NCBI RefSeq assembly: GCF_000003815.2
Contig: NC_049987.1
Span: forward strand, 24,965,846 to 25,029,845
Origin: Branchiostoma floridae
Lineage: Eukaryota > Chordata > Leptocardii > Amphioxiformes > Branchiostomatidae
Direction: 5' to 3'
Length of the DNA: 64,000 nt
The position numbers and the translations under genes were made by a program. Positions within the stretch are counted from its first letter, which is position 1. Every line of letters begins with the position of its first letter. This document shows positions 9,127 to 49,209 of the stretch, piece by piece. The notes beneath the pieces were generated by a model. It had not been told where the DNA came from. It worked only from the letters and a program-made list of their open reading frames with translations, and made no database searches.

Positions 9127-11522
9127 ATGTTGCGAGTCTGTCAGAAACTTCGTGCGGCTGACGCCAAGAGTAAGAGACTCGGACTGGTGCGTACGGAGAC
9201 AGACTACCTCCGTGCCCTGCTGGACGCCATGGCGGACATGGACAGGTATGCGGAAGTGGAGGTGCTCAAAACTCTGGGCGACGTGAACTTGGAAAAGGGA
9301 AGACTCGAGAAGAACCCGGAGAAGTTTGACAGAGCCATGGTGCTGTACAGGACCGCACTGCTCCGGGGTAAAGACGCAGGTGTGGGAGACAGTCTAGAAT
9401 ACCGTTACCACTATGCAGAAAAACTAAGGTTAGGAAAGGAGTCAACCGCTACAAGTAGTTACGAGCCCCTTTCTAACGCTAAGAGAATGCCTTCGCTCGC
9501 TAAAGTAGCAGAGAAGTTCCAACACCTGGACAGAAGATTGACTGCTGGTGGCAACAACGAGTGTTTACTGATTCAGGAATATACCAAGTTAGTGGTAGAA
9601 GGGATCGTGAACGACGACAACACGTTAGAGGTGGAAGCGATCAAGAGTCTCGGTGACGTGTACCTGAAAAGAGGAACAGAAACTAGAGACGCGCCATGTT
9701 TGACTAAAGCCACCGCTCTGTACAACACTGCGCTGTCAAGGTGTGAGGGGGTACAGGGTACAGCGTCACTCATTCATCGCTTACTGTACACAGCAAAAAT
9801 CAGAGAAGAAACCATGAGGAATGGGAATAAGGTAATAATCATTCATTCCCATTTCATTCTGCACAATCATGAAAGCTCCTAGATTCAACCCACAATGAAA
9901 TTAAAAATTCATCTTTGTCGGACTTAAGAATGTGTTGCATGAAATCGTTAGATCTCATTAGTCTCTCGTCATGTTGTTTGCTAATAATGATAGATTGTAA
10001 TGTTTTTTTGTGTCATTGTCGCTACTGAAGAGTCGTAGGCACAGAGTACAACAACAGGGTCACGTGCGGTCACGGGACTTTCCAGTGACGTCACCCAACA
10101 CTGATGTCATCGGTGACTCAAAAGGTCAACGGTCTGATAGGTAAGCACAGCAGTGGTCATGTTTGCTTTGTCGCTAGCACTACAAGTAACAAACGAGAGT
10201 AGTTGCTGTTTACATCCATGCTGGATATTAAAGAAAGGATTAATTTTAAAACCGATTTCTTGTATGTGTTGTTGTGTATTCAAGTCTTGTTACCTTCGCC
10301 AAGAAGATTAAATTTTGGGTAGCGTTTGTATGTCTGTATGTCTGTAGAAGACCAGCATAACTCGAGAACGCCTGAATGGATTGTGTTGACATTTGGTATG
10401 TGGGTAGGTCTTGAGAAGACCTGGAAACGATTAGATTTTGGGGCCCCTAGCGGCCTGTTACGGTACTGCAGTGGAACTTTCTGGTTTGATATCTTAAGTT
10501 CTGAACATGCTGTGGCTATGATTTTTGAGTGGTAGATAGCTCTTGCTCTTGATGCCGAGAGTAAGTGGTGTAGGTTTTGGCCTCCTAGTGACTTGTTTTG
10601 GAACTGCAGGGCAGGTTTAGAGTCAGACTTTAAAAGGGAATAACTCAAGAAGGGGTTAAATGATTGTTATGATTTTTGGTATGTAGATAGCTTAAGTGAT
10701 GCTTCATATAATGATTTTGCAAATTGGTATCTAATTTGCATAATTAATTAGGAAATTTTGTGAACACGTCAGTTCCATTATGGGACCATTGTAATATGTG
10801 ACATTTGTAACTGAGAAGGAGAAGAATATTGATTGATATATATTTAGCAAAATAAAGACCTAATTTGCATAATGGATGAGAAAATGCTATAATTTCATTT
10901 TGGTAAATGACAGGAACTTGTTACTTGTAGCATTTGGAAGTTATGTACAGGTGAACATCGTTGAACATTAAGTATGCAAATGAGGATCTCATTTGCATAA
11001 ATTATCAGAAAATACGATAAAAGCCTTCTTTCTTAACATAGATTGTGTACTTCTGTTGTCTGGTGGAGGAGATGATCAACTGATATAATTTCTGCAAATG
11101 AGAACCTTATTTGCATAATCAATGGCAAACACAATTAATATAACAGCAGTTGTAGAGAAAGATTAGGATCATTTGGCGAAGGTATGGGGTCATGGAACTC
11201 TAGTTTATTACATTCTACTACGCATTTCCAGAAAGAAATTACCCCTTGACTTTGAATAACGGATGATGTATAGCCCTGATACTGTTATCGACACCTGTAC
11301 CATCCTCGTCCCTTCAGGTCTTACCAGGAGCACCTGGCTACAGGGGACCGCGCACTGGCTGATGGGAAGCTGGACGAGGCAGAACAGAACTTTGCGTCTG
11401 CTCTCAGACTGATTCACTGTGCGTCATTTCATTGTGACATAATCTCCAAGCAGAGGTTATGTCAATTAGGATTTTACCATGACCAATATTGACCGACGGA
11501 GGAGGGCATGGTTAATATTGAC

Positions 11523-11580
<58 letters not shown>

Positions 11581-14500
11581 CGCCTACTTTGGTCAATATT
11601 GACCATGGTAAAATCCCTACTGATATCAGCCCTACAGCGTCGACTGTGGCTAAACAGTCCCATACGAGAATGACAGTCTCTGCCACATAGGGCACATCTG
11701 TAAGCTGACTCAGGTCTGTTGCAGAGTTCTTTTCGTAAGATCCGCTTTTCTTCAGCCATGCGCATCAGTCTGGTTTCTCCTGGCAGGCTTCTCCTGATTT
11801 TCTCCTAATGTTAGCTGCCTGGACAGTGTGGACAGGGGATAGTAGTGACCGGAATTAGGTACCCTCAGGGGAGCGGCATTTAAGGAATTCCGACCCAACC
11901 TCTGCTTGGAGAAATTCCATACCCAGCTTTCTTTTCGACTTTGTCCATGGGCAAGACGATTATTTTAATTCAAGAAAATTGACAATGGTATGCTCACAGA
12001 AATTCAGGCCATTCCATTCCACTTATAGCTGCATTAGCAAAGTGAACATTTTCAACCGTAGACTGAAATACTCATCATATAAGCAATGCAATTTCAGCGT
12101 TTCTTTATTCAAGAAATCTTCGTCATAGGTTAGATATTTGCTTGTGAAAAAACTTTTTACTTTCAAGAACTAAGAAGGTTGGTTCATGTAATCATTGCAA
12201 GAAAAGTTCGGATTGCCCACTTGACAAACTAATGAATATCTACTGTCCATACAGATCCTAATAAACCCGATCGGTGTAAAGAGGCCGACTGTCTGTGCAG
12301 ACTGGGTGACGTCTACGTCCGGCGAGGCAAAACAACAAAAGAAGGTAGGAAATTCACACAGGCGGCAGCTCTGTACAACGCAGCCATGGCAAGAACAGAC
12401 GAAATTAAAGACAGTGTGACAAGACGACTGCAGGAGATAGAGACATGGTTTCTCCATTACACGGCAAATGTGGAAACAAAATCTGTTCCTTCTGATTCGA
12501 CCACACGTCAAAAGAAGCAGTTAGAAGAGATGCGCACGCGTGCTAAGTCAGAACTAGACGCCATCAGTCAGCAGCACAATCCGTACCAATACGACGAGGA
12601 TGACCCAGTCATGTTAACAGTCGAGGCTGAGAGAGCCGAAGCAGTCAAGGCTTTATTCAAGAACATCGCCAAGGATAGACAGATGTTCATTGTGGACCTT
12701 GTTGATGAATGTATCGCCACACTCGGTCCTCCTCCGTGTAAGTACGCTTTCATCGGGTTAGGCTCACAGGCTACAGAACTGGTCACGCCCTACTCTGACC
12801 TGGAGTTCGCCATTCTGATTGAGGAAGGGAAGGACAATGACGACACACGGCGGTACTTCATCAACCTCACACACTACCTACACCTGAAAGTCATCAACCT
12901 CGGAGAGACCATCCTCCCAGCCATGGTCATCCCCTCATTGAACGATTTTCCAGAGAATGACTGGTTCTTTGACTCTGTCACACCGCGTGGGTTTGCCTTC
13001 GACGGCTTCATGCCATGGGCTAGTAAGACTCCGTTTGGAAGAGACCAGACCAAGACCAAGCCTCCCATCAGCCTTATCCAGACCCCTGCCGAAATGGCGA
13101 AGTTTCAGCGGCTAGACGTTTCTGTGGCAGAAGGGTATCACCTGTCCGACATCCTCAGACGAGTTGTTCTCTTAGCAGGAGAAGAGGCACTCGTGACCGA
13201 TTACATGACAAAACTCAGGGAAATCACTACGGGTGATCTACTCTCGCGTTTCCAGTCCCGTCTGTCTGCAGTACAGATTTTGTTGGATAACAGGAAGCAG
13301 CTTGACACCCTCGAGCCAACCGGACAACTGATAAATGTCAAGAAAGACATCTATCGTTTTCCGGGCGTAGCCATTGAAGTACTAGCTTTGTGCTGTCAGA
13401 TCACCCTCGCTAGCACGTGGAGTGTGATAGATGAATTAAAAGAAATGGGAAAGATCCATGAAGAGAATGCCGCCCACATTAGAGTTCTGACCAGCATCTC
13501 GGCAGAGCTCCGGTTAAGAACATATTTGAATAACGGGGGACAACAAGACAGTATGTCCCCTCTTACCCAGATGAAATACCAGTCAAAACCACAGGAGGTA
13601 TCTTACACCCTGACTTCCGTCTTCCAAATTCCAGACATACAGGTTCTTTTTAGATACTACTGCAGGGCAATCCCTTTGAAGAAATGTATACCACACAGTT
13701 TGGAGGGTAAACCGAAAAGTGTACTGAAAGCGACAATCTTAGATACCTCCCATGAATGTAGAGGTCGAATATCTAGAAACCTATATCTGTATGGTAGAGC
13801 CAAACACCATCTGGAAGCAGCATTAGCGGACGCCGGCAGCGACATGATCAAACGTTCGGCAATACTTGACGAATTGGGGTCTCTCTGGGCGTTCTTTGAT
13901 GATAGTAAAACAGGATCTGTGGTTAGGATCTATGAAGAGTCACTAAGGGTGCGTAAATCTATCTATGGAGACAACACGGCACATCCGGATATTGCCGGGT
14001 CACTAAACAACCTTGGAACGTCTTGGGTTGGACTTGGTGGCAGCAATAAAGCTATCGGCTACTACCAACAGTCACTATCGATGCTGAAAACTATCTATGG
14101 AGGCGGCACGGCACATCCGGACATTGCCATGACACTAAACAACCTTGGATCGGCATGGAGTAAACTCGGTGATAACAAGAATGCTATCAGCTACTACCAA
14201 CAGTCACTATCGATGCTGAAAACCATCTATGGAGGCGGCACGGCACATCCGGACTTTGCCAGGACACTAAACAACCTTGGATGGTCTTGGAGTAAACTCG
14301 GTGATAACAAGAAAGCTATCAGTTACTACGAACAGTCACTATCGATGCAGAAAACTATCTATGGATACAACACGGCACATCCGGACATTGCCGCGTCACT
14401 AAACAACATTGGATCGTCTTTGGGGAAACTCGGTGATGACAAGAAAGCTATTAGTTACCACATACAGTCATTAATGATGAGAAAAACTATCTATGGAGAC

Positions 14501-16480
14501 AACACGGTACATTCGCACATTGCCGCGTCACTACACAACCTTGGATCGTCTTGGAGTGAACTCGGTAATTACAAGAAAGCTATCAGTTACTACGAACAGT
14601 CACTATCGATGCAGAAAATTATCTATGGAGACAACACGGCACATCCGGACATTGCCCAGTCACTAAACAACCTTGGATCGTCTTGGAGTGAACTTGGTGA
14701 TAACAGGAAAGCTATCGGATACTATAAACAGTCACTATCGATGAGGAAAATCATTTATGGACACAACACGGCACATCCGGACATTGCCGCGTCACTAAGC
14801 AACGTTGGATCGTCTAGGAGTGAACTTGGTGATTACAAGAAAGCTAACAGCTACTACGAACAGTCATTATCGATGATGAAAACTATATATGGAGACGACA
14901 CGGTACATCCGGACATTGCTAAGTTACTAAGCAACCTTGGATCGTCTTGGCATAAAGTCGGCGATTACAAGAAAGCTATCAGCTACTTCCAACAGTCACT
15001 ATCGATGATGAAAACTATCTATGGAGACAACACGGCACATCCGGATATTGCCGCGTCACTAAACGGCCTTGGTTCGTATTGGAGTAACCTCGGTGATTAC
15101 AAAAAAGCTATCGGCTACTACCAACAGTCACTATCGATGCAGAAAACTATCTATGGAGGCGGCACGGTACATCCGGCCATTGCCCAATCACTAAGCTACC
15201 TTGGATTGTTTTGGAGTGCACTCGGTGATAACAAGAAAGCTATGAGCTACTTCGAACAGTCATTGTCGATGCAAAAAACTATCTATGGAAACAACACGAC
15301 ACATGCGGACATTGCCCATTCATTAAGCTACCTTGGATTGTCTTGGAGTAACCTCGGTGATTACAAAAAAGCTATCAGCTACTACCAACAGTCACTATCG
15401 ATGCAGAAAACTATCTATGGAGGTGGCACGGTACATCCGGACATTGCCTCGTCACTAAACAACCTTGGATTGTCTTGGGGGAAACTCGGTGATCACAGGA
15501 AAGCTATCAGCTACAACCAACAGTCACTATCGATGAAGAAAACTATCTATGGAGACGACACGGCACATCCGGACATTGCCGCGTCACTAAACAACATTGG
15601 ATCATCTTGGACTCAACTCGGTGATCACAAGAAAGCTATCAGCTTCTACCAACAGTCACTATCGATGATGAAAACTATCTATGTAGACAACACGGCACAT
15701 CCGGACATTGCCGCGTCATTAAACAACCTTGGAATGTCTTTAAGTAACCTCGGTGATTACAAGAAAGCTATCATCTACTGCGAACAGTCACTATCGATGT
15801 TGAAAACTTTGTATGGAGATAACACGGCACATCCGGACATTGCCGCGTCACTAATCAACATTGGATCATCTTGGACTCAACTCGGTGATCACAAGAAAGC
15901 TATCAGCTTCTACCAACAGTCACTATCGATGTTGAAAACTATCTATCGAGACAACACGGCACATCCGACCCTTGCCTCGTCACTACACAACCTTGGATCG
16001 TCCTTTAGTAGGCTTGGTGATGACAAGAAAGCTATCAGCTACTACCAACAGGCACTATCGATGATGAAAACCATCTATGGAGGCGGCACGGCACATCCGG
16101 ACATTGTCACGTCACTAAGAAACCTTGGATCGTCTTGGAGTAAACTCGGTGATCACAAGAAAGCTGTTAACTACATAGAACAGTCACTATCGATGCAGAA
16201 AACTATCTATGGAGACAACCCGGCACATCCGGACATTGCCTCGTCACTACACAACCTTGGATTGTCTTGGAGTAACCTCGGTGATAACAAGAAAGCTATC
16301 GGCTACTACGAACAGTCACTATCGATGAGGAAAACTACCTATGGAGACAACACGGCGCATCCGGACATTGCCAGGACACTTTACTGCCTGCAATTAGCAT
16401 GGACTAACATTGGTGATCACCAGAGAGCGATGGAGTACTGGCAACAATTGCAGAATATGCAGAGAGCTTTTGATGTGTGA
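9127..16480 (+). CDS. NTase-TPR gene 1 (four exons, 19 C-terminal TPRs)
   Basis: Exons 9127-9831, 10031-10140, 11318-11418 and 12255-16480 join in frame with GT-AG borders to give 1713 residues. The ATG at 9127 (MLRVCQKLRAADAK) is chosen because all four paralogues share it; an upstream in-frame ATG at 9070 is not conserved. Order: TPR-like modules in exon 1 (LKTLGDVNLEKG, IKSLGDVYLKRG), a Q/R-rich linker (exon 2), one TPR (exon 3, GDRALADGKLDEAEQNF), another module (CRLGDVYVRRG), then at about residues 475-490 the nucleotidyltransferase signature GSQATELVTPYSDLE. That G-S plus D-x-E pattern resembles GlnD/DUF294 enzymes. A helical domain (IEVLALCCQITLASTW, ISAELRLRTYL) follows, then 19 TPRs of 44 residues from about residue 863. 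The nucleotide substrate and target are unknown. There is no signal peptide or membrane segment, so it is probably cytosolic. Confidence 0.85.
10293..11182. mobile_element. TA-flanked DNA element, 890 bp, in intron 2 of gene 1
   Basis: The ends CCTTCGCCAA and TTGGCGAAGG are inverted, with TA on both sides (10291-10292, 11183-11184). It is absent at the matching intron site in the other three paralogues, so it inserted after duplication. The interior is AT-rich, with repeated AATTTGCATAA-like words and no transposase ORF. Confidence 0.8.
11442..11914. mobile_element. CTCCAAGCAGAGGTT element in intron 3 of gene 1
   Basis: The ends CTCCAAGCAGAGGTT and AACCTCTGCTTGGAG are inverted. The same element is at the same intron position in all four genes, with sizes of about 473, 300, 333 and 119 bp. 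This copy carries a nested palindrome (11471-11614) centred on a TA tract. Confidence 0.8.
11471..11614. mobile_element. Nested small palindrome with (TA)n centre
   Basis: ATTTTACCATGACCAATATT at the left pairs with AATATTGACCATGGTAAAAT at the right with about one mismatch. An uninterrupted TA run of about 26 units (11526-11579) fills the middle. It is present only in gene 1. Confidence 0.75.
13925..16440 (+). repeat. 132-bp TPR coding array, 19 units
   Basis: In-frame 132-bp units each encode one 44-residue TPR. Most positions are nearly fixed. The residues that change are mainly TPR positions 2, 5, 9, 12, 13, 17, 25 and 31 (counting A in DIA as 1, with L7, G8, W11, G15, A20). Some units carry GGGT in place of GDNT. 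Confidence 0.9.
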
Positions 16481-16494
16481 AGCTCGTTATGGAT

Positions 16495-17659: not shown

Positions 17660-20600
17660 GAGGCTCTGTCTGTAAAAACCAAGCATAGGGTGGCCAAACT
17701 CAAAAAATCGATTTTCCTTAAATTTTGTGTGGTGGTAGGGCCTTGGTCCAAACCTACAAAAATGGCAAAGTTTTAGATCTGCGGTCACCGGTTGCCATGG
17801 CAACGGCCATTTTTAAAAATGGCGGATTTTCACCAAGGGAAGGCATGGTCGCGTCCAAAATAGACCTTCTTTGGACTCCTTTAGCCCCCACAAATTAACA
17901 GATGTTTTATTGATTCTCGCATATGTTATTACCCATATTCTAATGAACAAAATGATATATAGTGATGCTCAAAATGTTTTTGTAGTCAGGTGCAGCAGAT
18001 GTTTGAAAATGATGTGTTTTCGAGAATTTCCAAAATTGGCAAAAATCCATTTTTTGACCATTTTTATTGACCATTAGCTCATTAGCAGGCAAATCAATTT
18101 GCTTCATTTTCGGCACAGTTATAGTTTGAACCTTTGTATACATCATATGTAAAAATAAATTTGGGCCTTTTACGTATCGGACCGTGGTGGCCCCCAGAGT
18201 AAACCAATATTTCCATTTCAAGAAAATCGTAACCATAGAATTATTCCTGGAAAAACAGTCATAGCTTACCAGAAATGAATCTCATTATCATTGTATGTAA
18301 CAGAGGAACTTACCTATCACTTATAAAAGCAGGGTTGTTTTAGATTTTTTTATAATTGCCTTTAAAATGATTTTATTGAGTTTTTTGGTCGTTTTTAGAC
18401 CACAAAATGTATCTTTTGGCCCCAGCACCCTGGTATTACAACCAAATGACCTGAAATTTGGTATGGGAATGTCCTGGACACGTACACACATGGGTTGTTA
18501 ACTGGTTTGCCATATGATAGAACAAAATGCTGAATTTTGTGACTTTTATGGGGCATTTTTGGCCCAAAAACTACATTTTTGGCCCCAGTACCCTGGTTTT
18601 ACAACCAAATGACCTGAAATTTGGTAAAGGAATGCCCTGGACACATACGCACATGGATTCAATAACAATTTTGGCATACTGTTCAATAAAATGCAAAAGT
18701 TTGTGATTTTTGGTTTATTTTTTCCCAAAAAAAGTACATTTTTGGCTCCCCTACCCTGGTTTTACAACTGAATGACCTGGAATTCGGTATAGCAATGCCC
18801 TGAACATATGCACACATGGATTCAATAACATGTTTTACATACAGTACAACAAAATGCTTAATTTTGAGATTTATTTTACAAAAAAGTCATTTTTTTGCTC
18901 CTGTTCCTTGGTTTTCCAAGTAAATAACCGGTAAAAAATCGGTATACAAATGTAGAATCGCCTTTGAAATGGCTTTTATAACCCGTTTTTGCATACAGTG
19001 CAACAAAACGCTTAATGTTGTAATTTTTGGTCATTGTTTTACCCAAAGTACATTTCTGGCTCCTTTTTGTAATTTTTGGCCCCAAAAGTACATTTTTGGC
19101 CCATTAAACCCTGGTTTTACAAGTAAATGAAATTCGGTATAAAAATGCCCTGGACACATGTACACATAGAGTCAATAATAATTTTGGCATACTGTGCAAC
19201 AAAATGCTTAATTTTGGTCATTTTTTTTACTAAAAAAAAGGTACATTTTTGGCTCTTGTACCCTGGCTTTACCATTGAATGACCTGCATTCGGTATTGGA
19301 ATGCCCTGGACATATGCACTGATGGATCCAATAACAACACGTTTGGCATACAATACAACAAAATGTTTAATTTGTTATTTTGGGCCATTTTTTTAAAACA
19401 AAAAAGTGCATTTTTGGCTCTTGTAGCCTGGTTTCACAACTAAAAAAATTTAGACTTGAACTTTGGTATAGGAATGCCCTGGACATATGCGCACATATGT
19501 CCAGGGCATGCTTGTCATACAGTACAGCGAAATGCTGAATTTTGTGTGTGTTTTTTGCCATTTTTTTTACAAAAAAAAATATTTTGGCTCCTGTAAAATA
19601 ACCTGTTTCTCCAATTAAATAATCTGAAATTCGGTATGGGAGTGCCCTGGACACTTTAATAACACTTTTTGGCAATTTACAATTTACAAAGACACGTCAT
19701 CTTTTAACATCTGCTGCACCTCACTACAAAAACATTTCGAGGATAACTTAGTATCACTTTTCTTATTAGAATATGGGTAATAACATATACGGGAATCAAT
19801 AGAATATCTCTTACTTTGTGGGGGTTTTTGGAGTCCAGGAGGTAATTTGCCTGTAATGCCTAATACGGAACAGGAGCTAGAAATGTACTTTGGGTAAAGC
19901 AATGACCAAAAATTACAACATTAAGCGTTTTGTTGCACTGTATGCAAAAACGGGTTATAAAAGCCATTTCCAATGCGCTCCTATACCAATTTTTTTACCG
20001 GTTATTTACTGGTTATTTACCAGGGAACAGGAGCAAGAAAATGACTTTTTTTGGTAAAAAAAATGGCAAAAATCTCAAAATTAAGCATTTTGTTGTACTG
20101 TATGTAAAACATGTTATTGAATCCATGTGTGCATATGTTCAGGGCATTGCTATACCGAATTCCAGGTCATTCAGTTGTAAAACTAGGGTAGGGGAGCCAA
20201 AAACGTACTTTTTTGGGAAAAAAATAAACCAAAAATCACAAACTTTTGCATTTTATTGAACAGTATGCCAAAAGTGTTATTGAATCCATGTGCGCATGTG
20301 TCCAGGGCATTCCTATACCAAATTTCAGGTCATTTGGTTGTAAAACCAGGGTGCTGGGGCCAAAAATGTAGTTTTTGGGCCGAAAATGCCCCAAATAAGT
20401 CACAAAATTCAGCATTTTGTTCTATCATATGGCAAACCAGTTATCAACCCATGTGTGTACATGTCCAGGACATTCCCATACCAAATTTCAGGTCATTTGG
20501 TTGTAATACCAGAGTGCTGGGGCCAAAAGATACATTTTGTGGTCTAAAAACGACCAAAAAAACTCAATAAAATTATTTTAAAGGCAATTATAAAAAAATC

Positions 20601-21290
20601 TAAAACAACCCTGCTTTTATAAGTGATAGGTAAGTTCCTCTGTTACATACAATGATAATGAGATTCATTTCTGGTAAGCTATGACTGTTTTTCCAGGAAT
20701 AATTCTATGGTTACGATTTTCTTGAAATGGAAATATTGGTTTACTCTGGTACACCACGGTCCGATACGTAAAAGGCCCAAATTTATTTTTACATATGATG
20801 TATACAAAGGTTCAAACTATAACTGTGCCGAAAATGAAGCAAATTGATTTGCCTGCTAATGAGCTAATGGTCAATAAAAATGGTCAAAAAATGGATTTTT
20901 GCCAATTTTGGAAATTCACGAAAACACATCATTTTTAAAAATCTACTGCACCTGACCACAAAAACATTTTGAGCATCACTATATATCATTTTGTTCATTA
21001 GAATATGGGTAATAACATATGCGAGAATCGATAAAATATCTGTTAATTTGTGGGGGCTACAGGAGTCCAAAGGAGGCCTATTTTGGACGCGACCAAGGCC
21101 GTCCCTTGGTGAAAATCCGCCATTTTGAAAATGGCCGTTGCCATGGCAACCGGTGACCGCAGATCTAAAACTTTGCCATTTTTGTAGGTTTGGACCAAGG
21201 CCCTACCACCACACAAAATTTAAGGAAAATCGATTTTTTGAGTTTGGCCAACTTTTTCTGATTTTGCTTGGTTTTTACAGACATCAGCTC
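17660..21290. mobile_element. 3.6-kb foldback DNA element with TTAA target site
   Basis: Two inverted arms of more than 1.3 kb each; the outer ends (CTGTAAAAACCAAGC, and GCTTGGTTTTTACAG as its complement) lie a few bases inside TTAA on both sides (17656-17659, 21291-21294). The empty site is visible in homologous flanks near 29393. TTAA duplication is used by piggyBac and Kolobok elements; the GAG-type ends favour Kolobok. Each arm contains several diverged copies of a unit of roughly 165 bp (recurring words GACCTGAAATTTGGTA, GCCCTGGACA, ACAAAATGCTTAATTTTG). No transposase ORF is present, so it is non-autonomous. A further diverged copy of the outer sequence sits in the centre (about 19690-19850). 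Confidence 0.85.
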
Positions 21291-33500: not shown

Positions 33501-35791
33501 TCACACACTACCTACACCTGAAAGTCATCAACCTCGGAGAGACCATTCTCCCATCGATGGCCATCCCCTCCTTGAACGATTTTCCAGAGAAAAACTGGTT
33601 CTTTGACTCTGTCACACCGCGTGGGTTTGCCTTCGACGGCTTCATGCCATGGGCTAGTAAGACTCCGTTTGGAAGAGACCAGACCAAGACCAAGCCTCCC
33701 GTCAGCCTTATCCAGACCCCTGCCGAAATGGCAAAGTTTCAGCGGCTAGACGTTTCTGTGGCAGAAGGGTATCACCTGTCCGACATCCTCAGACGAGTTG
33801 TTTTCTTGACAGGAGAAGAGGCCCTCGTGACTGATTACATGACAAAACTCAGGGAAGTCACTACGGGTGATCTACGCTCGCGTTCCCAGTCCCGTCTGTC
33901 TGCAGCGCAACTCTTGGAGGATAACTTAGAGCATTTTGCCACCCTCGAGCCAACCGGACAACTGTTAAACATCAAGAAAGACATCTATCGTTTCCCGGGC
34001 GTAGCCATTGAAGTACTAGCTTTGTGCTGTCAGATCACCCTCGCCAGTACGTGGAGTGTGATAGATGAATTAGAAGAAATGGGAAATATCCGTGAAGAGA
34101 ATGCCGCCCACCTTCGAGTTCTGACCAGCATCTCGGCAGAGCTCCGGTTAAGAACGTACTTGAATAACAGGGGACAACAAGACAGTATGTCCCCTCTTAC
34201 CCAGATGAAATACCAGTCAAAACCACAAGAGGTCTCCGACACTACCCTGAGTTCAGTATTCCAAATTCCTAACATACAAGTTATCTTTAGATACTACTGC
34301 AGGGCAATCCCTTTGAAGAAATGTATACCACACAGTTTGCAGGGTAAACCGAAAAGTGTACTGAAAGCGACAATCTTAGATACCTCCCATGAATGTAGAG
34401 GTCGAATATCTAGAAACCTATGTCTGTATGGTAGAGCCAAACACCATCTGGAAACAGCATTAGCGGACGCCGGAAGTGACATGATCAAACGTTCGGAAAT
34501 ACTTGAAGAACTGGGGACTCTCTGGGCGTTCTTTGATGATAGTAAAACTGGAGTTAGTGTCTATGAAGAGTCACTTAGGGTGCGTAAAACTATCTATGGA
34601 GACAACACGGCACATCCGGATATTGCCGCGTCACTACACAACCTTGGATTGTCTTGGTTTGAACTCGGTGATAACAAAAAAGCTATCAGTTACTTCGAAC
34701 AATCATTATCGAAGATGAAAACTTTGTATGGAGACAACACGGCACATCCGGGCATTGCCATATCACTACACAGCCTTGGATCGGCTTGGAGTAAACTCGG
34801 TGATTACAGGAAAGCTATCGGCTACTTCAAACAGTCACTATCGATGCAGAAAACTTTCTATGGTCACAACACGGCACATCCGGACATTGCCGCGTCATTA
34901 AACAACCTTGGAACGTCTTTGAGTGAACTCGATGACAACAGGAAAGCTATCGGCTACTTCAAACAGTCACTATCGATGATGAACACTACCTATGGAGACA
35001 ACACGGCACATCCGCACATTGCCGCGTCACTAAACAACCTTGGATTGTCTTTGAGTAAACTCGGTGATCACAAGAAAGCTATCGACTACTACCGACAGTC
35101 ACTATCGATGAGGAAAACTATCTATGGAGACAACACGGCACATCCGGACATTGCCGGGTCACTAAGCAACCTTGGATCGTCTTGGTTTGAAGTCGGTGAT
35201 AACAGGAAAGCTATCAGCTACTACCAACAGTCACTATCGATGAGGAAAACTATCTATGGTCACAACACGGCACATCCGGACATTGCCGCGTCACTAAAGA
35301 ACCTTGGATCGTCTTGGAGTAACCTCGGTGATAACAGGAAAGCTATCGGCTACTACGAACAGTCACTATCGATGAGGATAACTATCTATGGAGACAACAC
35401 GGCACATCCTGGAATTGCTATGTTACTAAATAACATTGGATCGACTTGGCATAAATTCGGTGATTACAAGAAAGCTATCAGCTACTACCAACAGTCATTA
35501 TCGATGCAGAAAACTATTCATGTAGACAACACTGCACATCCGGACATTGCCGCGTCACTAAACAACCTCGGATCATCTTGGGGTAACCTGAGGGATTACA
35601 AGAAAGCTATCAGCTACTTCCAACAGTCACTATCGATGCAGAAAACTATTCATGGAGACAACACGGCACATCCGGACATTGCCAAGACACTTAACTGCCT
35701 GCAATTAGCATGGACCGAGATTGGTGATCATCAGAGAGCGATGGAGTACAGGCAACAATTAGAGAATATGCAGCGTGCGTTTGATATGTGA
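30591..35791 (+). CDS. NTase-TPR gene 3 (four exons, 9 C-terminal TPRs)
   Basis: Exons 30591-31292, 31478-31590, 32094-32194 and 32889-35791 give 1272 residues with phases 0, 2, 1. Layout as in the sister genes: TPR-like modules, NTase signature GSQATELVTPYSDLE at about 475, helical domain (IEVLALCCQITLASTW), nine 44-residue TPRs from about 863, and the end QRAFDM. Flanks and the later part of the helical domain (KCIPHSLQGKPKSVLKATIL) match gene 1. Exon 1 and the first half of exon 4 (FLTGEEALV, REVTTGDLRS, EAIDQQ) match gene 2. One TPR has LDDNRKAI for LGDNRKAI and another LRDYKKAI, both losing the usual TPR glycine 15. The sequence is intact throughout. Confidence 0.85.
32223..32555. mobile_element. 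CTCCAAGCAGAGGTT element in intron 3 of gene 3, with a tandem core
   Basis: Same site as in the sister genes, about 333 bp. Its core (about 32265-32415) is a run of imperfect units of roughly 20-22 bp, AAGTAAGTGTCTTGAGCAGA, not seen in the other three copies. Confidence 0.8.
34560..35750 (+). repeat. 132-bp TPR coding array, 9 units
   Basis: Nine in-frame 132-bp units ending in the LQLAWTEIGDHQRAMEY cap. The last two full units share KTIH in place of KTIY, suggesting one was copied from the other. Confidence 0.9.
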
Positions 35792-38040: not shown

Positions 38041-38856
38041 TTACAGAGGTGTTCTCTCGATCTCTGGCGTTATCTTAGACATTGACGTCATGGTGATGAA
38101 ACTGCCCTTCTTGACGTACAACGACTGCGTCATGTGACGCCACATCACCAGGGCGACGCGCGTCACTAGCAACAGGGCGGTCACGCCTAGTAACACGCAG
38201 ACGTAGATGACGTTCCTCTTGGCGGGGTCCCAGTTCTTGGTCAGGTTTCCGGAAAGCGCGGCCACCACCACCACGTACGGCACCAGGGTGTAGCGGCAGT
38301 ACCGATCCAAGACGCAAGATCTCCGCAAGAAGGACCGCGAACATCCCGGTTGAGACGTCCTCGTCGCTGAAGCCTCCGACGTAGATGAGGACGATGTCGA
38401 GGTTGAGGAGGGTAGCGATGGAGGTCCAGGTGGCGTAGATGGCCAGCCCGATGTGAACGAGCCCGTGCGTGAGCCAGAGGTCGACGGGAGAGTTCTCAGG
38501 CAACCAGGGCCCGTTCTGGTCCAGCCGGCGGTAGGAGATGAAGAGGAGACTGTAGAGGGTGNNNNNNNNNNNNNNNNNNNNNNNNNNNNNNNNNNNNNNN
38601 NNNNNNNNNNNNNNNNNNNNNNNNNNNNNNNNNNNNNNNNNNNNNNNNNNNNNNNNNNNNNGATGACGTAAAAGGCGGGGAAGGGAAGAGCTCGGGAGTG
38701 ATGTAGAAGTACCCCCCGGAGTGTTTCCGGAAGAGGCAGAAAGTGACGTAGATGAGCCAGGCGAGGTTCCAGACGTAGATGAAGCCCCAGATGGAGAAGA
38801 CCCAGCCCGACGGCACCACCTCGTTGCCGTACTTGTCGGAGATTTTCCCGATGGTG
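38041..38856 (-). CDS. 3' exon of a multipass membrane protein, TspO/MBR-like features
   Basis: A strong acceptor (tttcctcag) opens the exon at 38856 in phase 2 and TAA closes it at 38041-38043; 100 N (38562-38661) interrupt it. The translation starts TIGKISDKYGNEVVPSGWVF and continues with tryptophan-rich hydrophobic segments: SIWGFIYVWNLAWLIYVTFC, THGLVHIGLAIYATWTSIAT, LLNLDIVLIYVGG, YTLVPYVVVVAALSG and VIYVCVLLGVTALLLVTRVA. The PSGWVFSIWG element recalls TspO/MBR proteins, but the protein is longer and I do not recognise a named gene. The frame changes once at about 38310-38345, between MFAVLLAEIL and DRYCRYTLVPY, by one base. This could be an assembly error near the gap or a real lesion. 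Upstream exons lie to the right and were not found. Confidence 0.65.
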   Translation of the reverse strand, partial: HHRENLRQVRQRGGAVGLGLLHLGLHLRLEPRLAHLRHFLPLPETLRGVLLHHSRALPFPAFYVIXXXXXXXXXXXXXXXXXXXXXXXXXXXXXXXXXXPSTVSSSSPTAGWTRTGPGCLRTLPSTSGSRTGSFTSGWPSTPPGPPSLPSSTSTSSSSTSEASATRTSQPGCSRSFLRRSCVLDRYCRYTLVPYVVVVAALSGNLTKNWDPAKRNVIYVCVLLGVTALLLVTRVALVMWRHMTQSLYVKKGSFITMTSMSKITPEIERTPL

Positions 38857-40180
38857 CTGAGGAAACAAATAAAATCGGTAATGTAATCAGGTAATGTTAA
38901 CCTAACGTATAAAGCTGGGAGTTTATATGAAAAAAAAGTAGCCACCATGGAAAATATTTTGGGTGAGAGATGTTGGCCACGTGTTTATATAATTATTCTG
39001 AGGGCAGTAATTCGTTACTCGTTAAGCTCCATTTTAAAGTGCCTTACGAAAGAATTTCACCATCTCGACTCGTTCACTAGACGAAAGACCGATATGTAGA
39101 CGGATGCTGACGGATTCCAATTTGCAACACCTGACGGATGCTGACGTATGCTGACAAGTGCTGACGGATCCCAAAAACCATCACAGATCCCAAAAAATGA
39201 CGGATCCCACTTGCATCCGCAACGCATTCGTAGGTATCCGTAACTCTCATCGGTGGATACAAACACAGAACCCGTATACTCAGTACTTCGTGACGGATGC
39301 TAACACTGCATTCGTATGGATACTTACTTATAATCACGGATTCGTTAGTATCTGTAAGCCACTAACTGATTCAAACATTGTATTCGTATGGATACTTAGT
39401 TTTAACGCAAACGAAAGAATACGTGGTCAGGATTCTTGTTTATCAGCGAAAAGTCTTCAGATGCAGACGAATACCAAGGATACGAATTTGCAACATCCTG
39501 ACGGATGCTGACGGATACCAAAGATTACCAAAAATCACGGATCCCATACACATCCGTAACGCATTCGTTGGTATCCGAAACTCGCGGTGGATGCAAACAC
39601 GGAATTCGTTTGCTTACTTACTTCGTGGCGGATGCTAACACAGCTTCCGTAAGAATACTTACTTTTTATGTATGCGTGGCTAGCACTCTTGTTTTTGAGC
39701 ATATATTTTATTTTTTAGATTGGTCATATCTTTCCCCCTTTTTGTACCTCGGACACCACAGTTTGTAACGTCAATACAAGTGAGACAATCCACGTTACGC
39801 TAGATACCAGGATACTCGGATTCGTAAGGATGCGAAATGGTTTTTTTCTGCATTCGTGGCAAGATTACCAACAATGCACTGCTCCAGTGGATTGCTCCAG
39901 TGGAGGGGATTCCATTGGAGCAGTGCATTGTTGGTAATCTTGGGATATCTTAAATATGCGACTCTGTATTTTTTTGCATCCGTACATTGGGGCGGTGTAT
40001 TGTGGGTAATACAATCGTTGTCTCTCTGACCAATCAGACTGCACATCAGTCAGTTTAAAAATAAAGCGGAGATAGTCAGCGTTGTCCGTGAGGACCGCAA
40101 TCTTTTTGTACCTCAAACTCAGTTGAGTTTTGAAACGTTGAACTCGGGATATGGATTTGTACACACGTGTGTGAACTTCT
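38857..40180. other. Spacer with degenerate repeats
   Basis: 39070-39680 is filled with imperfect repeats of GACGGATGCTGACGGAT, CACGGATCCCA and CATCCGTAACGCATTCG, giving shadow ORFs. It contains the perfect 26-bp inverted repeat at 39861-39941. No gene seen. Confidence 0.6.
39861..39941. repeat. Perfect 26-bp inverted repeat with 29-nt loop
   Basis: AAGATTACCAACAATGCAC... (39861-39886) pairs exactly with 39916-39941. The loop holds a CTCCAGTGGA word also found at the top of the left stem. A related word (GTATTGTGGGTAATAC) follows at about 39994. It may be a small MITE or a stable hairpin. Confidence 0.8.
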
Positions 40181-40189
40181 GTAGTAGGG

Positions 40190-42120: not shown

Positions 42121-42405
42121 AATTTCGGATATTTTAGGGATCCAACTCGAATCCGTTTGCATTCGCTAGCATTTGTTACAAATACGCAAATATCCCTGCT
42201 CGGATATGGCTACATCCGATACCCTTTCCCCCAGTGGTTCCTAAATGATTAGGCTTGCTTTTCTGGAGTTTGCATATCAATAAACAATTTACCTCTTTTA
42301 GAGTATCTGTCCTTATAAAATGTGCACAGTCAAGGGTAGTTTGCATCGCCCTTTAACAAATTTTAAACCTCGTACCTGCAAGTCATTTTAAAAGTAAACT
42401 TACAG

Positions 42406-43545
42406 TGTGTTACAAACTACTCATTATATTCAGACGGCCGACACGTCATATAACTACCACGTGCATTTATCACCTGTGGGCATGTACATGTAATACAAAA
42501 GACTCAGTGCTGGCCCAACCCAAAGTCTAAAATTAACCTGAAGCTGTCCAACCACCTCATGAGCTCAGCACTGAGTTGAAAGACACTGCGACAGTTAAGA
42601 CAGAATCAGTAAGACTTTAAGGAGTTTGTAGCCTGAAGAATGTAGCCTGAAGACATCTTCCTTCCATACTGAGGTAAGACAGTCAACTTCTCTATAACCC
42701 TACATGTATTTCTTGTTATTGGAATTGGGAACGATTGTGAGATCAAATGTTTGGTTCATACGTCATAACAAAATGGCGACAAGGAAAAATCAAACAGGAA
42801 CATGTTAGACGGCACTTGGTTGACAAACAGATCAGAGACATTCTGATACTAATTATTACATAACTTGTTTTTAAGTCAATATTTCACTTTCCAAGTTTTC
42901 ACTTCTAAAAGAAACCCATACAAGGATATTAGGAGGGAGATTTCAAGATTTTAAATTATAGTATTTGTGTGAACATAAGAAGTAGCAAACAGTTTGTATC
43001 TCAATAATTGTGACCTCTATTTGGATACTTGCATATGCACGCCCTTTAAGAAATCTTAAACGCATGATTGCGAAACATTTTAACTGTAAACTTAAAGTGT
43101 GCCACAAACAAGTGATTATGTTCAGATGACATGCACATGTAACTACCACTGGTATCACCAGCGGGCATGTCAAGACAATAAGCCGTGTTGACTGAACTCA
43201 GCGTCTATATTTAACCTCCTAGGTAATCCAAGTCACCACCTCAGCGTAGAGTTGAAGGACACATTTAAGACAGACATTCTGAGACGTTAAGGAGTTTGCA
43301 GACTGAAAACAAGTATACCGGGATATCATTTTTCAGAACATTATATGCAATGTGTCAAACCTGAACCCTGAACCCCTTCGACTACTTTTTGCCGTGCACT
43401 ACCCGCTGTCGTGGAACAATGTGGAACTGCCGGAGGGTGCATCGTTAACAGAACCGCGGGCCCAGTTTCTCAGCGGCGACGCGTGAGTGTATGAGTGTAT
43501 ACGTACTGTGTAGTTTAACGATCTTGGGGAGCTCCGTAACCCAAA
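42406..43545 (+). promoter_or_regulatory. Class B 5' region of NTase-TPR gene 4
   Basis: Nearly collinear with 21665-22832 upstream of gene 2, down to the CCGTGCACTACCCGCTGTCG leader block and the ATG. The match starts abruptly after unrelated sequence, giving the left edge of the duplicated unit. Confidence 0.6.
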
Positions 43546-46500
43546 ATGTTGCGAGTCTGCCAGAAACTTCGCGCGGCGGACGCCAAGAGTAAGAGACTCG
43601 GACTGGTGCGTACCGAGACAGACTACCTCCGTGCACTGCAGGACGCCATGGCGGACATGGACAGGTGCGCGGAAGTGGAGGTGCTCAAAACTCTGGGCGA
43701 CGTGAACTTGGAAAAGGGAAGACTCGAGAAGAACCCAGAGATGTTTGACAGAGCCATGGTGTTGTACAGGACCGCACTGCTCCGGTGTAAGGACGCAGGT
43801 GTGGGGGACAGTCTAGAATACCGTTACCACTATGCAGAAAAACTAAGGTTAGGGAAGGGGTCAACCGCTACAAGTAGTTACGAGCCCCTTACTAACGCTA
43901 AGAGAATGTCTTCGCTCACAAAAATAGCTGAGAAGTTCCTACACCTGGACCGAAGATTGACTGTTGGTGGCAACAAGGAGTCTTTACTGATTGAATATAC
44001 CAAGTTAGTGGTGGAAGGGATCGTGAACGACGACAACACGTTAGAGGTGGAAGCGATCAAGAGTCTCGGTGACGTGTACCTGAAAAGAGGAACAGAAACT
44101 AGAGACGCGCCATGTTTGACTAAGGCCACTGCTCTGTACAACACTGCGCTGTCAAGGTGTGAGGGGGTCCAGGGTACAGCGTCACTTATTCACCGCTTAC
44201 TGTACACAGCAAAAATCAGAGAAGGGACCATGAGGAGCAGAAATAAGGTAATCATTCCCATTTCATGCTGCACAATCCACCACTTCTTGATTCAACCCAC
44301 AATGAAATTAAAAGTTTATCTTCGTCTGACTTAATTATAACGTTAATGAAGTGTTGCATGAAATCGTTAGTCTCTCGTCATGTTGTTTGTTAACAAGGAT
44401 AGATTTTAATGTTTTTCCGTGCCATTGTCGTTACTGAAGAGTCGTAGGCACAGAGTACAACAACAAGGTCACGTGCGGTCACGGGACTTCCCAGTGATGT
44501 CACCACACGCTGATGTCATCGCTGACTCAAAAGGTCAACGGTAAGCACAGCAGTGGTAATGTTTGCTTTGTCGCTAGTATAACAGACGAGAGTTGCTGTT
44601 TACATAAATGCTGGATAAGAAAGAATTTGGATTTAGATTAATTTTGACATCGATTTCTTGCATATGTTGATGTGTATTCAAGTCTTCTTCGCTATATATT
44701 CTACTACGCATTTCCAGAATGAAATTACCTCAGACTTTGAATAACGGGTGAATCTGATTGGATTAGCTACTAAACCACTGGTGTTTAAGTTGTGAATTAA
44801 GACTTTAATCTGTAGTGTATATCAACACTATGATGAAAACTCCTTGATATCGTTATCTATCCATTGTATAAGATAAAGTTATGTATCAATGGCACAGTAT
44901 AGGGGTATAGCCTTGATATCAACTTGACAGTTCATCTGTGTTGGTAGAAGTCATTCTTGAACTAGTTAAACTGTAATATCCAAAAAATTGGGTGAATCCA
45001 CTGTTTGTGTTTTGGATATTTAATTAAGGGCTAATGACCCGCCCGAGGTGTATATGGTGTCATAACTAGACTTTGCTATAACCACCGAATAAAACCACCG
45101 AGTGAGAAAAGCAAAGGACAAGGCGTTATGACACCATATATACCGAGGAACAGGCGGGTCATTAACGTTATTATCATACAGCCTACCCAAACTGACCCAT
45201 TTAAGCGACAAATTCCTTTATAATGCATACATCCTTTATTCAGTACATTTAATCAATTTGAACAGTGAATTTGAAAATATACAACTTGTATTTGAAATGT
45301 CTTGCAAACGATTTGCATCGACACCGGTGTCGATTCATTCTAACCAATCAGAAGGATCGATACACACCGGGCTGGCCGGAATCTATGTGCTACGGCGCCA
45401 TAACCAACATGGAATGGGCCCTTCTGATAGGTCCGCGGCGCCTGTCTACATGATAATACAGTTAAACTAGTTCAAGTAGCCTTAATATTGTTATCGACAC
45501 CTGTAACATCCTCGCCCCTTCAGGTCTTACCAGGAGCACCTGGCTACAGGGGACCGCGCACTGGCTGATGGGAAGCTGGACGTGGCAGAACAGAACTTTG
45601 CATCTGCGCTCAGACTGATTCACGGTGCGTTATTTCACTGTCACTTTCCCGTACCTATTCTCCAAGCAGAGGTTGGGTCGGTGGATAGTAGTGACCGGAA
45701 TTTGTTACCAGCCTCCCCCCACCCCCACTCAGGGGAGCGGTAAGGAATTCCGACCCAACCTCTGCTTGGAAAATATCCATACCCAGCTTTCTCTTCGACT
45801 TTGCTCACAGAAAGCTAGGCCATTCTACTGATAGCGGCATTAGCAAAGTGAACATCTTCAACCGTAGAAAATAATATAAATCATATAAATCCTCATAGCC
45901 TATATACTTGGTTGTGAAAAAATGTTTTACTTTTCAAAACTAAGACGGTTGATTCATGTAGTCATTGAAAGAGAAGTTCGGAATACCCACTTGACAAACT
46001 AATGAATATGTACTGTCCTTATAGATCCTAATAAACCCGATCGGTGTAAAGAGGCGGACTGCCTGTGCAGACTAGGAGACGTCTACGTCCAGCGAGGCAA
46101 GAGAACAAAAGAAGGTAGGAAATTCACACAGGCAGCAGCTCTGTACAACGCAGCCATGGCAAGAACAGACGAAATAAAACACAGTGTGACAAGAAAACTG
46201 AAGGAAATAGAGACATGGTTTCTCCATTACACAGCAAATGTGGAAACCAAATCTGTTCCTTCTGATTCGGCCACGCGTCATAAGAAGCGGTTAGAAGAGA
46301 TGCGTACGCGTGCTAAGTCAGAACTAGACGCCATCAGTCAGCAACACAATCCGTACCAATATGACGAGGATGATCCAGTTATGATTACGGTCGAGGCTGA
46401 GAGAGCTGAAGCAGTCAAGGCTCTATTCAAGAACATCGCCAAGGATAGACAGCTGTTTATCCAGGACCTTGTTGATGAGTGTATTGCCACACTCGGTCCT

Positions 46501-49209
46501 CCTCCATGTAAGTACGCTTTCATCGGGTTGGGCTCACAGGCCACAGAACTGGTCACGCCGTACTCCGACCTGGAGTTCGCCATTCTGATTGAGGATGGGA
46601 AGGACAATGACGTCACCAGGCGGTACTTCATCAACCTCACACACTTCCTACACCTGAAAGTCATCAACCTCGGAGAGACAATTCTCCCATCAATGGCAAT
46701 CCCCTCATTGAACGATTTTCCAGAGAAAGACTGGTTCTTTGACTCCGTCACCCCGCGTGGGTTTGCCTTAGACGGCTTCATGCCATGGGCTAGTAAGACT
46801 CCGTTTGGAAGAGACCAGACCAAGACCAAGCCTCCCGTCAGCCTTATCCAGACCCCTGCGGAAATGGCAAAGTTTCAGCGGCGAGACGTTTCTGTGGCAG
46901 AAGGGTATCACCTGTCCGACATCCTCAGACGAGTTGTTCTCTTAGCAGGAGAAGAGGCACTCGTGACCGATTACATGACAAAAATCAGGGAAATCACTAC
47001 GGGTGATCTACTCTCGCGTCTCCAGTCCCGTCTGTCTGCTGTACAGATTTTGCAGGATCACAGGGAGCAGCTTTCTACCCTCGAGCCAACCGGACAACTG
47101 ATAAATGTCAAGAAAGACATCTATCGTTTTCCGGGTGTAGCCATTGAAGTACTGGCCTTGTGCTGTCAGATCACCCTCGCTAGCACGTGGAGTGTGATAG
47201 ATGAATTAAAAGAAACGGGGAAGATCCATGAAGAGAATGCCGCCCACCTTAGAGTACTGACCAGCATCTCGGCAGAGCTCCGGTTAAGAACTTACTTGAA
47301 TAACAGGGGACAACAAGACAGTATGTCCCCTCTTACCCAGATGAAATACCAGTCAAAACCGCAAGAGGTCTCTGACACTACCCTGAGTTCAGTACTCCAA
47401 ATTCCAAACATACAAGTTCTTTTTAGATACTATTGCAGGGCAATCCCTTTGAAGAAATGTATGCCAGACAGTTTGCAGGGTAAACCGGAAAGTGTGCTGA
47501 AAACGACAATCTTCGACATCTCCCATGAATGTAGAGGTCGAATATCTAATAACCTGTGTCTTTTCTGGAGAGCCAAACACCATCTGGAAACAGCATTAGC
47601 GGACGCCGGCAGCGACATGATCAAGCGTTCGGCAATACTTGAAGAACTGGGGACTCTCTGGGCCTTTTTTGATGATATCAAAACAGGAGTTAGTGTCTTT
47701 GAAGAGTCACTTAGGGTGCGTAAAACTATCTATGGAGACAACACGGCACATCCGGATATTGCCGCGTCACTACACAACCTTGGATGGTCTTGGAGTGAAC
47801 TCGGTGATAGCAAGAAAGCTATAAGCTACTTCGAACAGTCACTGTCGATGCAGAAAACTATCTATGGAGACAACACGGTACATCCGGACATTGCCGCGTC
47901 ACTAAACAACCTTGGATCGTCTTGGGGTGAACTTGGTGAAAACAGGAAAGCTATCGGCTACTTCAAACAGTCACTATCGATGAGGAAAACTATCTATGGA
48001 GACAGCACGGCACATCCGGACATTGCCGGCTTACTAAACAACATTGGATCGTCTTGGACCAAACTCGTGGATTACAGGAAAGCTATCGGCTACTTCAAAC
48101 AGTCACTATCGATGCAGAAAACTATCTATGGAGACAACACGGCACATCCGGACATTGCCGGGTCACTAAACAACCTTGGATTGTCTTGGCGTAACCTCGG
48201 TGATAACAGGAAAGCTATCGGCTACTACCAACAGTCACTATCGATGAGGAAAACTATCTATGGAGACAACACGGTACATCCGGACATTGCCGCGTCACTA
48301 CACAACCTTGGGTCATCTTGGGGTGAACTTGGTGATAACAAGAAAGCTATCGGCTACTACCAACAGTCACTATCGATGAAGAAAACTATCTATGGAGACA
48401 ACACGGCACATCCGGACATTGCCGAGTCACTAAACAACCTTGGATCGTCTTTGAGCAAACTCGGTGATCACAAGAAAGCTATCGGCTACTTCCAACAGTC
48501 ACTATCGACGAGGAAAACTATCTATGGTCACAACACGGCACATCCGGACATTGCCCAGTCACTAAACAACCTTGGATTGTCTTGGACACAACTCGGTGAT
48601 CACAGGAAAGCTATCAGCTACTACCAACAGTCACTATCGATGAAGAAAACTATCTATGGAGACAACACGGCACATCCGGACATTGCAGCCTCACTAAACA
48701 ACATTGGATCGTCTTGGTTTGAACTTGGTGATAGCAAGAAAGCTATCAGTTACTTCGAAAAGTCACTATCGATGAGGAAAATTATCTACGGAGACAACAC
48801 GGCACATTCGGATATTGCCGCGTCACTAAACAACATTGGATTGTCTTGGTGTGAACTTGGTGATAGCAAGAAAGCTATCAGTTACTTCGAACAGTCACTA
48901 TCGATGATGAAAACTATCTATGGAGACAACACGGCACATCCGGACATTGCCGCGTCACTACACAACATTGGATTGTCTTGGAGTAACCTCGGTGATCACA
49001 AGAAAGCTATCAACTACTTCATGCAGTCACTATCGATGATGAAAACCATTTATGGAGACAACGCGGCACATCCACACATTGCCTCGTCACTAAACAACCT
49101 GCAATTAGCATGGACTAACATTGGTGATCACCAGAGAGCGATGGAGTACTGGCAACAATTACAGAATATGCAGAGGGCTTTTGATATGCGAAGCTCGTTA
49201 TGGATCTAA
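43546..49209 (+). CDS. NTase-TPR gene 4 (four exons, 11 C-terminal TPRs)
   Basis: Exons 43546-44247, 44440-44540, 45524-45624 and 46025-49209 give 1362 residues. Exon 2 is 12 nt shorter than in gene 2 (9 nt of it at the donor, which is rebuilt as CAACG|gtaagc), keeping the phase. The NTase signature GSQATELVTPYSDLE lies at about residue 471; eleven 44-residue TPRs follow from about 859. The usual stop after QRAFDM is changed from TGA to CGA, so the protein runs on for RSSLWI. The usual AATAAA is AATAGA (49266-49271). Exon 1 and the first half of exon 4 group with gene 1 (AISQQHNPYQ, LLAGEEALV, REITTGDLLS), whereas the flanks and KCMPDSLQGK...LKTTIFD group with gene 2. Predicted role as for gene 1. 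Confidence 0.85.
45024..45175. mobile_element. Palindromic MITE in intron 2 of gene 4
   Basis: AATGACCCGCCCGAGGTGTA, then ATATGGTGTCATAAC, is inverted as GTTATGACACCATATATACC...GGCGGGTCATTAAC. It is part of a larger gene-4-only insertion reaching about 45455. Confidence 0.7.
45656..45774. mobile_element. CTCCAAGCAGAGGTT element in intron 3 of gene 4
   Basis: The shortest of the four orthologous-position copies (about 119 bp), consisting of little more than the two inverted ends. Confidence 0.8.
47700..49150 (+). repeat. 132-bp TPR coding array, 11 units
   Basis: Eleven in-frame units. Units with LGDSKKAISYFE occur at the start and again near the end, suggesting copying of blocks inside the array. 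Confidence 0.9.

Follow-up and report, generated by a model that had tools for sequence, protein, structure and literature searches.

A family of about 250 amphioxus loci joining a predicted GlnE/DrrA-type nucleotidyltransferase module to variable TPR arrays, with relatives in bacteria

The window analysed here, a stretch of 64,000 nucleotides from the genome of the amphioxus Branchiostoma floridae (G000:C9:24965846-25029845; genome of 513,431,437 bases in 431 contigs), carries four complete tandem genes, each of which joins a nucleotidyltransferase (NTase) domain of the Pfam family DUF294 to a helical domain and to a C-terminal array of tetratricopeptide repeats (TPRs) that differs in length from gene to gene. 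The putative catalytic residues are conserved, the repeats vary mainly at positions that would line a binding groove, and the predicted fold resembles that of protein adenylyltransferases. The reading preferred here, to which we assign a probability of slightly below 0.6, is that each gene encodes a transferase of nucleoside monophosphates (NMP) onto proteins, equipped with a built-in target reader.

Gene structure of the array

The motif GSQATELVTPYSDLE occurs at window positions 12761, 26096, 33395 and 46531, in all four copies on the + strand and in an open frame, and is followed 3' by a TRF-detected tandem array of 132-nucleotide (44-residue) units. Gene models, which combine splice signals with open reading frames (ORFs) and cover coding exons only, predict a common plan of three exons: exon 1, which starts with MLRVCQKL, a 91-nucleotide exon 2, and a large exon 3 encoding the NTase and the TPRs. 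After splicing, the proteins predicted for copies 1 to 4 have lengths of 1673, 1143, 1231 and 1325 residues, each with a single terminal stop and none internally.

All exons lie on the + strand. In copy 1, exon 1 (9127-9831) encodes a helical N-terminal part and ends at the donor AATAAG/GTAATA, exon 2 (11328-11418) is short, TPR-like and placed by conserved splice signals, and exon 3 (12255-16480) holds the NTase (aligned stretch 12422-13945) and an array of 19 repeat anchors (13955-16372). The exons of copy 2 lie at 22833-23534, 24833-24923 and 25590-28228, with 7 anchors in the array (27287-28137), those of copy 3 at 30591-31292, 32104-32194 and 32889-35791, with 9 anchors (34586-35683), and those of copy 4 at 43546-44247, 45534-45624 and 46025-49209, where NTase and helical domain (modelled stretch 46192-47712) precede an array of 11 anchors (47722-49100). 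In copies 2 to 4, exon 1 is supported by ORFs and splice signals and exon 2 by splice signals, while exon 3 is supported in every copy by ORF, TRF array, splice signals and a DUF294 match, and in copy 4 also by a structure model. Neighbouring anchors are always 44 residues apart.

A preliminary description of this DNA had spoken of four intact paralogues plus a fragment, with TPRs of variable number. The motif, the arrays and the intact predicted genes bear out the four paralogues, and the anchor counts the variable number; the fragment lies at 1-991, outside the interval that had been given for the family. It belongs to a fifth paralogue on the + strand, which is cut by the window edge and whose 3' end is recognised by its translation and a TRF array at 6-915. 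Exon 1 and the NTase exon of this copy (locus L009) start about 4 kilobases upstream and less, a run of Ns interrupts the NTase exon and covers the middle of the copy, and the codon at 2-4, adjoining that run, is a stop in the TPR frame; given the N run and the stop beside it, the fifth copy may or may not be intact.

Domain assignment and catalytic residues

PF03445 (DUF294), with a gathering cut-off of 21 bits, scores 29.7, 28.1 and 27.3 in copies 2 to 4, and a genome profile search gives it 29 bits where copy 1 lies (C9:24978483, window 12638). PF10335 (DUF294_C) stays below its cut-off of 22.5 bits in copies 2 to 4 (15.3, 17.6 and 16.9) and in locus L027 (21.5), and exceeds it in the bacterial proteins L036 (26.5) and L037 (28.0). 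At E<=1 the Pfam list of copy 2 is complete and contains 21 families; those of copies 1, 3 and 4 comprise the best 25 matches each. No GlnE (PF03710), HD, ACT, CBS, OAS1_C, Mab-21, Fic or SelO domain is found in the copy 2 list; in the bacterial protein L030, GlnE reaches 15.8 bits against a cut-off of 24. F-box matches are absent from the Pfam lists, all complete, of copy 1 exon 1 (P0001), copy 4 exon 1 (P0007) and copy 2 exon 3 (P0004). The divergent member L014 matches SidM_N (PF20879) at 26.1 bits, under the cut-off of 27, and two PII uridylyltransferase models weakly at 18.3 and 18 bits, far under theirs. Against a cut-off of 100 bits, TPR_NPHP3 summed over the repeats scores 213.7, 106.5 and 133.6 in copies 1, 3 and 4 and falls just short, at 96.1, in copy 2. 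In copy 4, TPR-type and other NCBIfam models remain below their cut-offs with the exception of TPR_END_plus (41.1 vs 32), and PADLOC contains no family for the window NTase, giving weak matches of at most 24.7 bits for L010 and L036.

GS-ATase and DrrA share the motif G-X11-[D/E]-X-[D/E], and DrrA uses three metal-binding aspartates plus a base (PMC8097203; this and the other papers cited by accession are drawn on from the parts available). In the numbering of the structure model, G114-X11-D126-X-E128 fits this motif in all four window copies (D126 and E128 correspond to D446 and E448 in copies 2 to 4 and to 447 and 449 in copy 1). Among 25 aligned family rows, which are the four window copies plus 21 picked by search rank and hence biased to well-scoring members, the G, D126 and E162 are kept in every row and E128 in 24; L011, L012 and L015, outside the alignment, likewise read S-D-F-E. 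When bacterial sequences are included (48 rows), the G is kept in 48, D126 in 47, E128 in 45, with D in two more, and E162 in 48. E162 is the candidate for the third metal-binding carboxylate.

Predicted fold

Among the Foldseek matches listed for the modelled NTase and helical part of copy 4 (507 residues), the best are the protein adenylyltransferases DrrA/SidM and GlnE, matched over NTase and helical domain (about 310-320 residues) at a sequence identity of 12-13%. The predicted fold is described here as a GlnE/DrrA-type NTase with a helical, HEPN-like module. OAS and cGAS folds were not among the 50 rows listed in each of three structure searches, although absence from these lists excludes nothing. 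A direct comparison of the window NTase sequence with solved structures returned nothing meaningful (a single capsid match, E 1.7).

The preliminary description had placed the domain, as a polymerase-beta-type NTase, near GlnD/DUF294 and had seen a helical follow-on domain; the former agrees with PF03445 above its cut-off and the latter with the model. The alignment of the candidate carboxylates, which it had proposed as a check, gives acidic residues kept in 24-25 of 25 family rows. It had left the output as either a signalling nucleotide or a protein modification, and since the model matches DrrA/SidM and GlnE best, protein modification is now the likelier and a signalling nucleotide the less likely of the two.

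Diversity and selection in the repeats

The NTase part (562-563 codons) has a ratio of nonsynonymous to synonymous rates (dN/dS) of 0.21-0.32 in all six pairs of window copies, and exon 1 one of 0.19-0.48. In the 49 window repeats with strict 44-residue spacing, the most variable positions are, in order, 6, 16, 35, 17, 21, 9, 28, 29, 26 and 13. Of these, 6, 9, 13, 16 and 17 are taken here to be the TPR positions 2, 5, 9, 12 and 13 that line the concave groove. In known TPRs those positions contact ligands. Of 100000 random sets of five positions, 1 reaches their mean entropy; for 59 repeats that come from 13 further loci and satisfy the same strict anchor and spacing, the figure is 2 of 100000, so that the diversification of the repeats claimed in the preliminary description holds in the window and beyond it. 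Since TPRs are in general variable at groove positions, this set is read as a diversified binding groove and not as formal positive selection. The ratio pN/pS is 1.49 at the groove positions (bootstrap 1.18-1.97), 1.36 (1.03-1.99) at positions 21, 26, 28, 29 and 35, and 0.64 (0.54-0.78) at the 34 others.

Homogenisation of repeats within genes was considered and rejected, the nearest repeat lying in the same gene for 14 of 49 (0.23 expected). Mean repeat identity is 0.842 within and 0.848 between genes, and because repeats of one gene resemble each other no more than they resemble those of other genes, the sequences suggest that repeats have moved between gene copies.

Size and distribution of the family

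The genome profile search with PF03445 yielded 262 candidate places, of which all 150 that were scored exceed the Pfam cut-off; of 14 control genomes searched in the same way, 4 also give matches. The back-translated motif P-[YF]-[ST]-D-[LF]-E-[FY] has 257 exact genome matches vs 7 for the reversed pattern, a count that includes some pseudogenes or unplaced duplicates, several matches carrying stops. The degenerate codons of the pattern allow a few other letters at the S position, and the pattern misses members such as L016 (D-I-E), in which a different residue separates the D from the E. The family is of the order of 250 loci, and given the 150 of 150 scored places and the excess over the reversed pattern, the NTase-TPR observation is not due to chance. 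The scored places are spread over 24 contigs (17 of C1-C19 plus 7 smaller ones) and are clustered, 73 of 150 lying less than 50 kilobases from another vs a random mean of 4.4. Contamination was rejected as an explanation in view of the predicted introns, the large contigs and the many loci. L011 and L015, two paired members that are split by introns, share the conserved motif GSLAREETTPYSDFE and are possibly an older, slower subfamily that gave rise to the single-exon copies.

Relatives in bacteria

A pattern-based scan of 84,980 bacterial and archaeal species, non-exhaustive since it relies on a short peptide pattern, returned four loci: two in Parachlamydiaceae (39% identity over about 300 residues), one in a metagenome-assembled genome (MAG) whose title, Rickettsia typhi, may be mistaken (33% identity), and a short match in Corynebacterium. 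In a scan of viral contigs, 38 stretches fitted the pattern and no relative was found. In the phylum of the Parachlamydiaceae MAG, 34 of 232 genomes match, with the best E below 1e-28 in 11 and down to 5.4e-85; in the order of the Rickettsia-titled MAG (G002), 15 of 261 match, again with the best E below 1e-28 in 11. The phylum of G002 (398 genomes) has three matches at E<=1e-10, strong only in G002 itself, the other two being at about 1e-12 and 1e-11. These two bacterial groups would be Chlamydiota and Rickettsiales. Several bacterial genomes hold many candidates, up to 40 in G090, nine of which were scored.

DUF294 above its cut-off is followed by TPRs in five of six bacterial proteins scanned (L030, L036, L037, L055 and L056), the match in L032 being below the cut-off. 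L036, from the phylum of the Parachlamydiaceae MAG, combines an F-box-like domain with DUF294 and TPRs, and L030 has an additional methyltransferase domain. At G359:C17:32000-32578, in the order of the Rickettsia-titled MAG, a family match lies inside a single open frame of 11442 residues.

A tree was built from 25 of the roughly 250 amphioxus loci and 23 bacterial rows; it contains no other eukaryotes and hence gives no direction of transfer. Left out were L011, L012 and L015 (split or short), L009, the window duplicates L001 and L004-L006 and, on the bacterial side, L033, L035, L046, L047, L049, L052 and L058. The amphioxus rows are set apart by one branch (97/92), with four rows of the Rickettsia order as their neighbours (98/95) and the other two of that order just outside (87/85); six rows have long branches.

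Proposed mechanism and alternatives

In the preferred reading, the N-terminal helical part and a C-terminal TPR superhelix would flank the GlnE/DrrA-type NTase with its HEPN-like module. The G-S would touch the nucleotide triphosphate, D126 and E128, probably with E162, would coordinate the metals, and the enzyme would transfer an NMP, AMP being the likeliest, to a hydroxyl of a protein bound in, and selected by, the TPR groove. Duplication, the passing of repeats from gene to gene and substitutions in the groove could then have built a repertoire of about 250 loci with a single conserved catalytic output and many binding surfaces. The analysis shows the domain, its predicted fold, the motif, the number of copies, the contrast in selection and the homologues in bacteria of intracellular type; enzymatic activity, the donor AMP, the protein acceptor, the movement of repeats between genes and a role against intruders are inferred. 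The preference for AMP over UMP is guessed from the model, whose near solved folds belong to enzymes that add AMP to a protein tyrosine or remove it.

Several observations weigh against this reading. A shared fold does not prove the reaction, and the Foldseek superpositions are loose (TM-score by query 0.39-0.45, root-mean-square deviation 7.6-15.4, over the whole 507 residues). Profiles built from amphioxus sequences alone match DrrA weakly (E 0.025-0.43), no GlnE sequence is among the matches listed in these searches, and among the Pfam matches listed SidM_N stays under its cut-off, at 14.7 bits in copy 2 and 11.9 in copy 4. The second motif position is E instead of D, and N in L013 (1 of 25 rows), and D126 is missing in one of the 48 rows, a bacterial one. 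Finally, of 5000 random five-sets 936 attain the groove pN/pS of 1.49, because small sets hold few silent changes; the amino-acid excess at the groove is firm, formal positive selection is not.

A variable groove, a constant catalyst, clustered genes and about 250 loci are as expected of a recognition system, and the bacterial kin, thought to act inside host cells, add weight to that view. The family may act against intruders or their effectors; an immune role is compatible with the data, although features of the repertoire do not show immunity. A wider proposal is more tentative and, in our judgement, possible but doubtful: that the family constitutes a third class of animal protein AMPylases, of GlnE/DrrA fold, with about 250 TPR-guided enzymes marking proteins of intruders, their effectors or host targets with AMP, and that the module was exchanged by gene transfer with intracellular bacteria, where it serves as injected effectors.

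Of the alternatives, the one that survives best is a pseudoenzyme or scaffold in which the NTase fold is retained for structural reasons or to bind nucleotides while function lies with the TPRs, as in proteins resembling TTC28 or nephrocystin-3. The dominance of TPR matches, including TPR_NPHP3 above or just under its cut-off, fits such a protein, but the catalytic residues kept in 24-25 of 25 rows and nearly all bacterial rows, together with purifying selection on the NTase part, make it unlikely. More improbable is a second-messenger synthase in which the TPRs, on binding a ligand, would switch on synthesis of a nucleotide, either cyclic or linear, in the manner of OAS and cGAS with other ligands. 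This had been raised in the preliminary description and draws on the common polymerase-beta superfamily and the sensor-like diversification of the repeats; the Pfam family is however DUF294, with neither OAS nor Mab-21 in the copy 2 list, and the best solved folds are protein adenylyltransferases, even if OAS and cGAS are not excluded thereby. Drift or repeat-driven recombination without an adaptive role, a birth-and-death process as considered for chlamydial families (PMC4209131), would account for the clustering, for repeats that are not closer within a gene than between genes (14 of 49) and for the stops in some genome matches. It sits badly with a dN/dS well below 1 in the NTase part and with amino-acid variation concentrated in the groove, both in the window and in the 59 repeats of 13 other loci, and we give it little credence. 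A UMP-transferase acting on a small regulator in metabolism, as GlnD does on PII proteins, is very improbable: DUF294 is grouped with GlnD and L014 has its faint PII uridylyltransferase matches, but HD and ACT are absent from the copy 2 list and some 250 diversified copies are ill-suited to a metabolic regulator.

Comparison with known systems

Among the closest known systems is NEX2 of Neochlamydia, a set of 50 proteins with an F-box, sometimes OTU, DUF294 and C-terminal TPRs and a dN/dS of 0.29; in one member the type III secretion signal proved functional when tested, secretion being predicted for two only (PMC4209131). The window genes likewise have DUF294 in mid-protein followed by C-terminal TPRs, whereas they contain introns and lack an F-box match, which most NEX2 members carry N-terminally. 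With DrrA/SidM and GlnE they share the NTase-helical fold and the G-X11-[DE]-X-[DE] motif, but they have TPR arrays in place of the other parts of those proteins and D-X-E vs D-X-D. The likeness to GlnD/DUF294 consists in PF03445 above its cut-off and in the GSxAREExTPYSDFE of the divergent L010, L011 and L015; HD, ACT and CBS, in contrast, are not in the copy 2 list.

Arrays of TPRs with one enzyme domain, a closely parallel design, are also found in coral TPR-CHAT genes, of which two corals have 276 and 304 with TPR tracts of varying length (PMC12314368), and in the 27 PEX2 proteins of Protochlamydia (PMC4209131), although there CHAT replaces the NTase. TPR-CHAT is thus expanded in Protochlamydia and corals, and DUF294-TPR in Neochlamydia and amphioxus (PMC4209131; PMC12314368). 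The animal AMPylases named in the available parts of two reviews are Fic and SelO only (PMC8097203; PMC12409994), whose presumed chemistry is alike and whose folds differ from the window NTase; most metazoans have one Fic gene (PMC8097203), HYPE also carries TPRs (PMC12409994), and it has been speculated that further AMPylases may be found (PMC8097203). Other expanded immune-type families have been reported in Branchiostoma, the window family not being among them in the part of that paper covered (PMC8195603). In the literature searched, which leaves subscription journals and preprints mostly uncovered, no description of an animal DUF294-TPR family was found. The Pfam domain and the DUF294-TPR order in Neochlamydia are already known.

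Other elements in the window

Between copies 1 and 2, a 3.6-kilobase inverted repeat (17682-21259) looks like a fold-back element, with arms at about 17682-18872 and 20070-21259 that are 94-99% complementary and partly composed of 163-nucleotide tandem units. Seventeen copies of a 34-nucleotide unit with 97% matches lie at 3482-4059 and are crossed by two long ORFs. On the - strand between copies 3 and 4, hydrophobic ORFs at 38041-38948 are broken by a run of Ns, and Pfam scans of two of the pieces gave nothing at E<=0.01. An ORF at 61235-61462 (- strand) matches the FOP N-terminal dimerisation domain at 28.9 bits against a cut-off of 29.4; it may be part of an FGFR1OP/CEP43-like gene, as one of its exons, that lies outside the array.

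Significance

If active, these proteins would represent protein-modifying enzymes of a kind new to animals. Because an animal family with the GlnE/DrrA fold, complete motif residues, about 250 loci and groove-focused diversity is now at hand, the question of polymerase-beta-type protein nucleotidylation in animals, and of its part in immunity, becomes directly testable. Two enzyme-TPR families are common to amoebal chlamydiae and invertebrate expansions, and the architecture described here, common also to bacteria of the Rickettsia order, would be a rare case of a receptor-like repertoire of a host and effectors of bacteria belonging to a single family.

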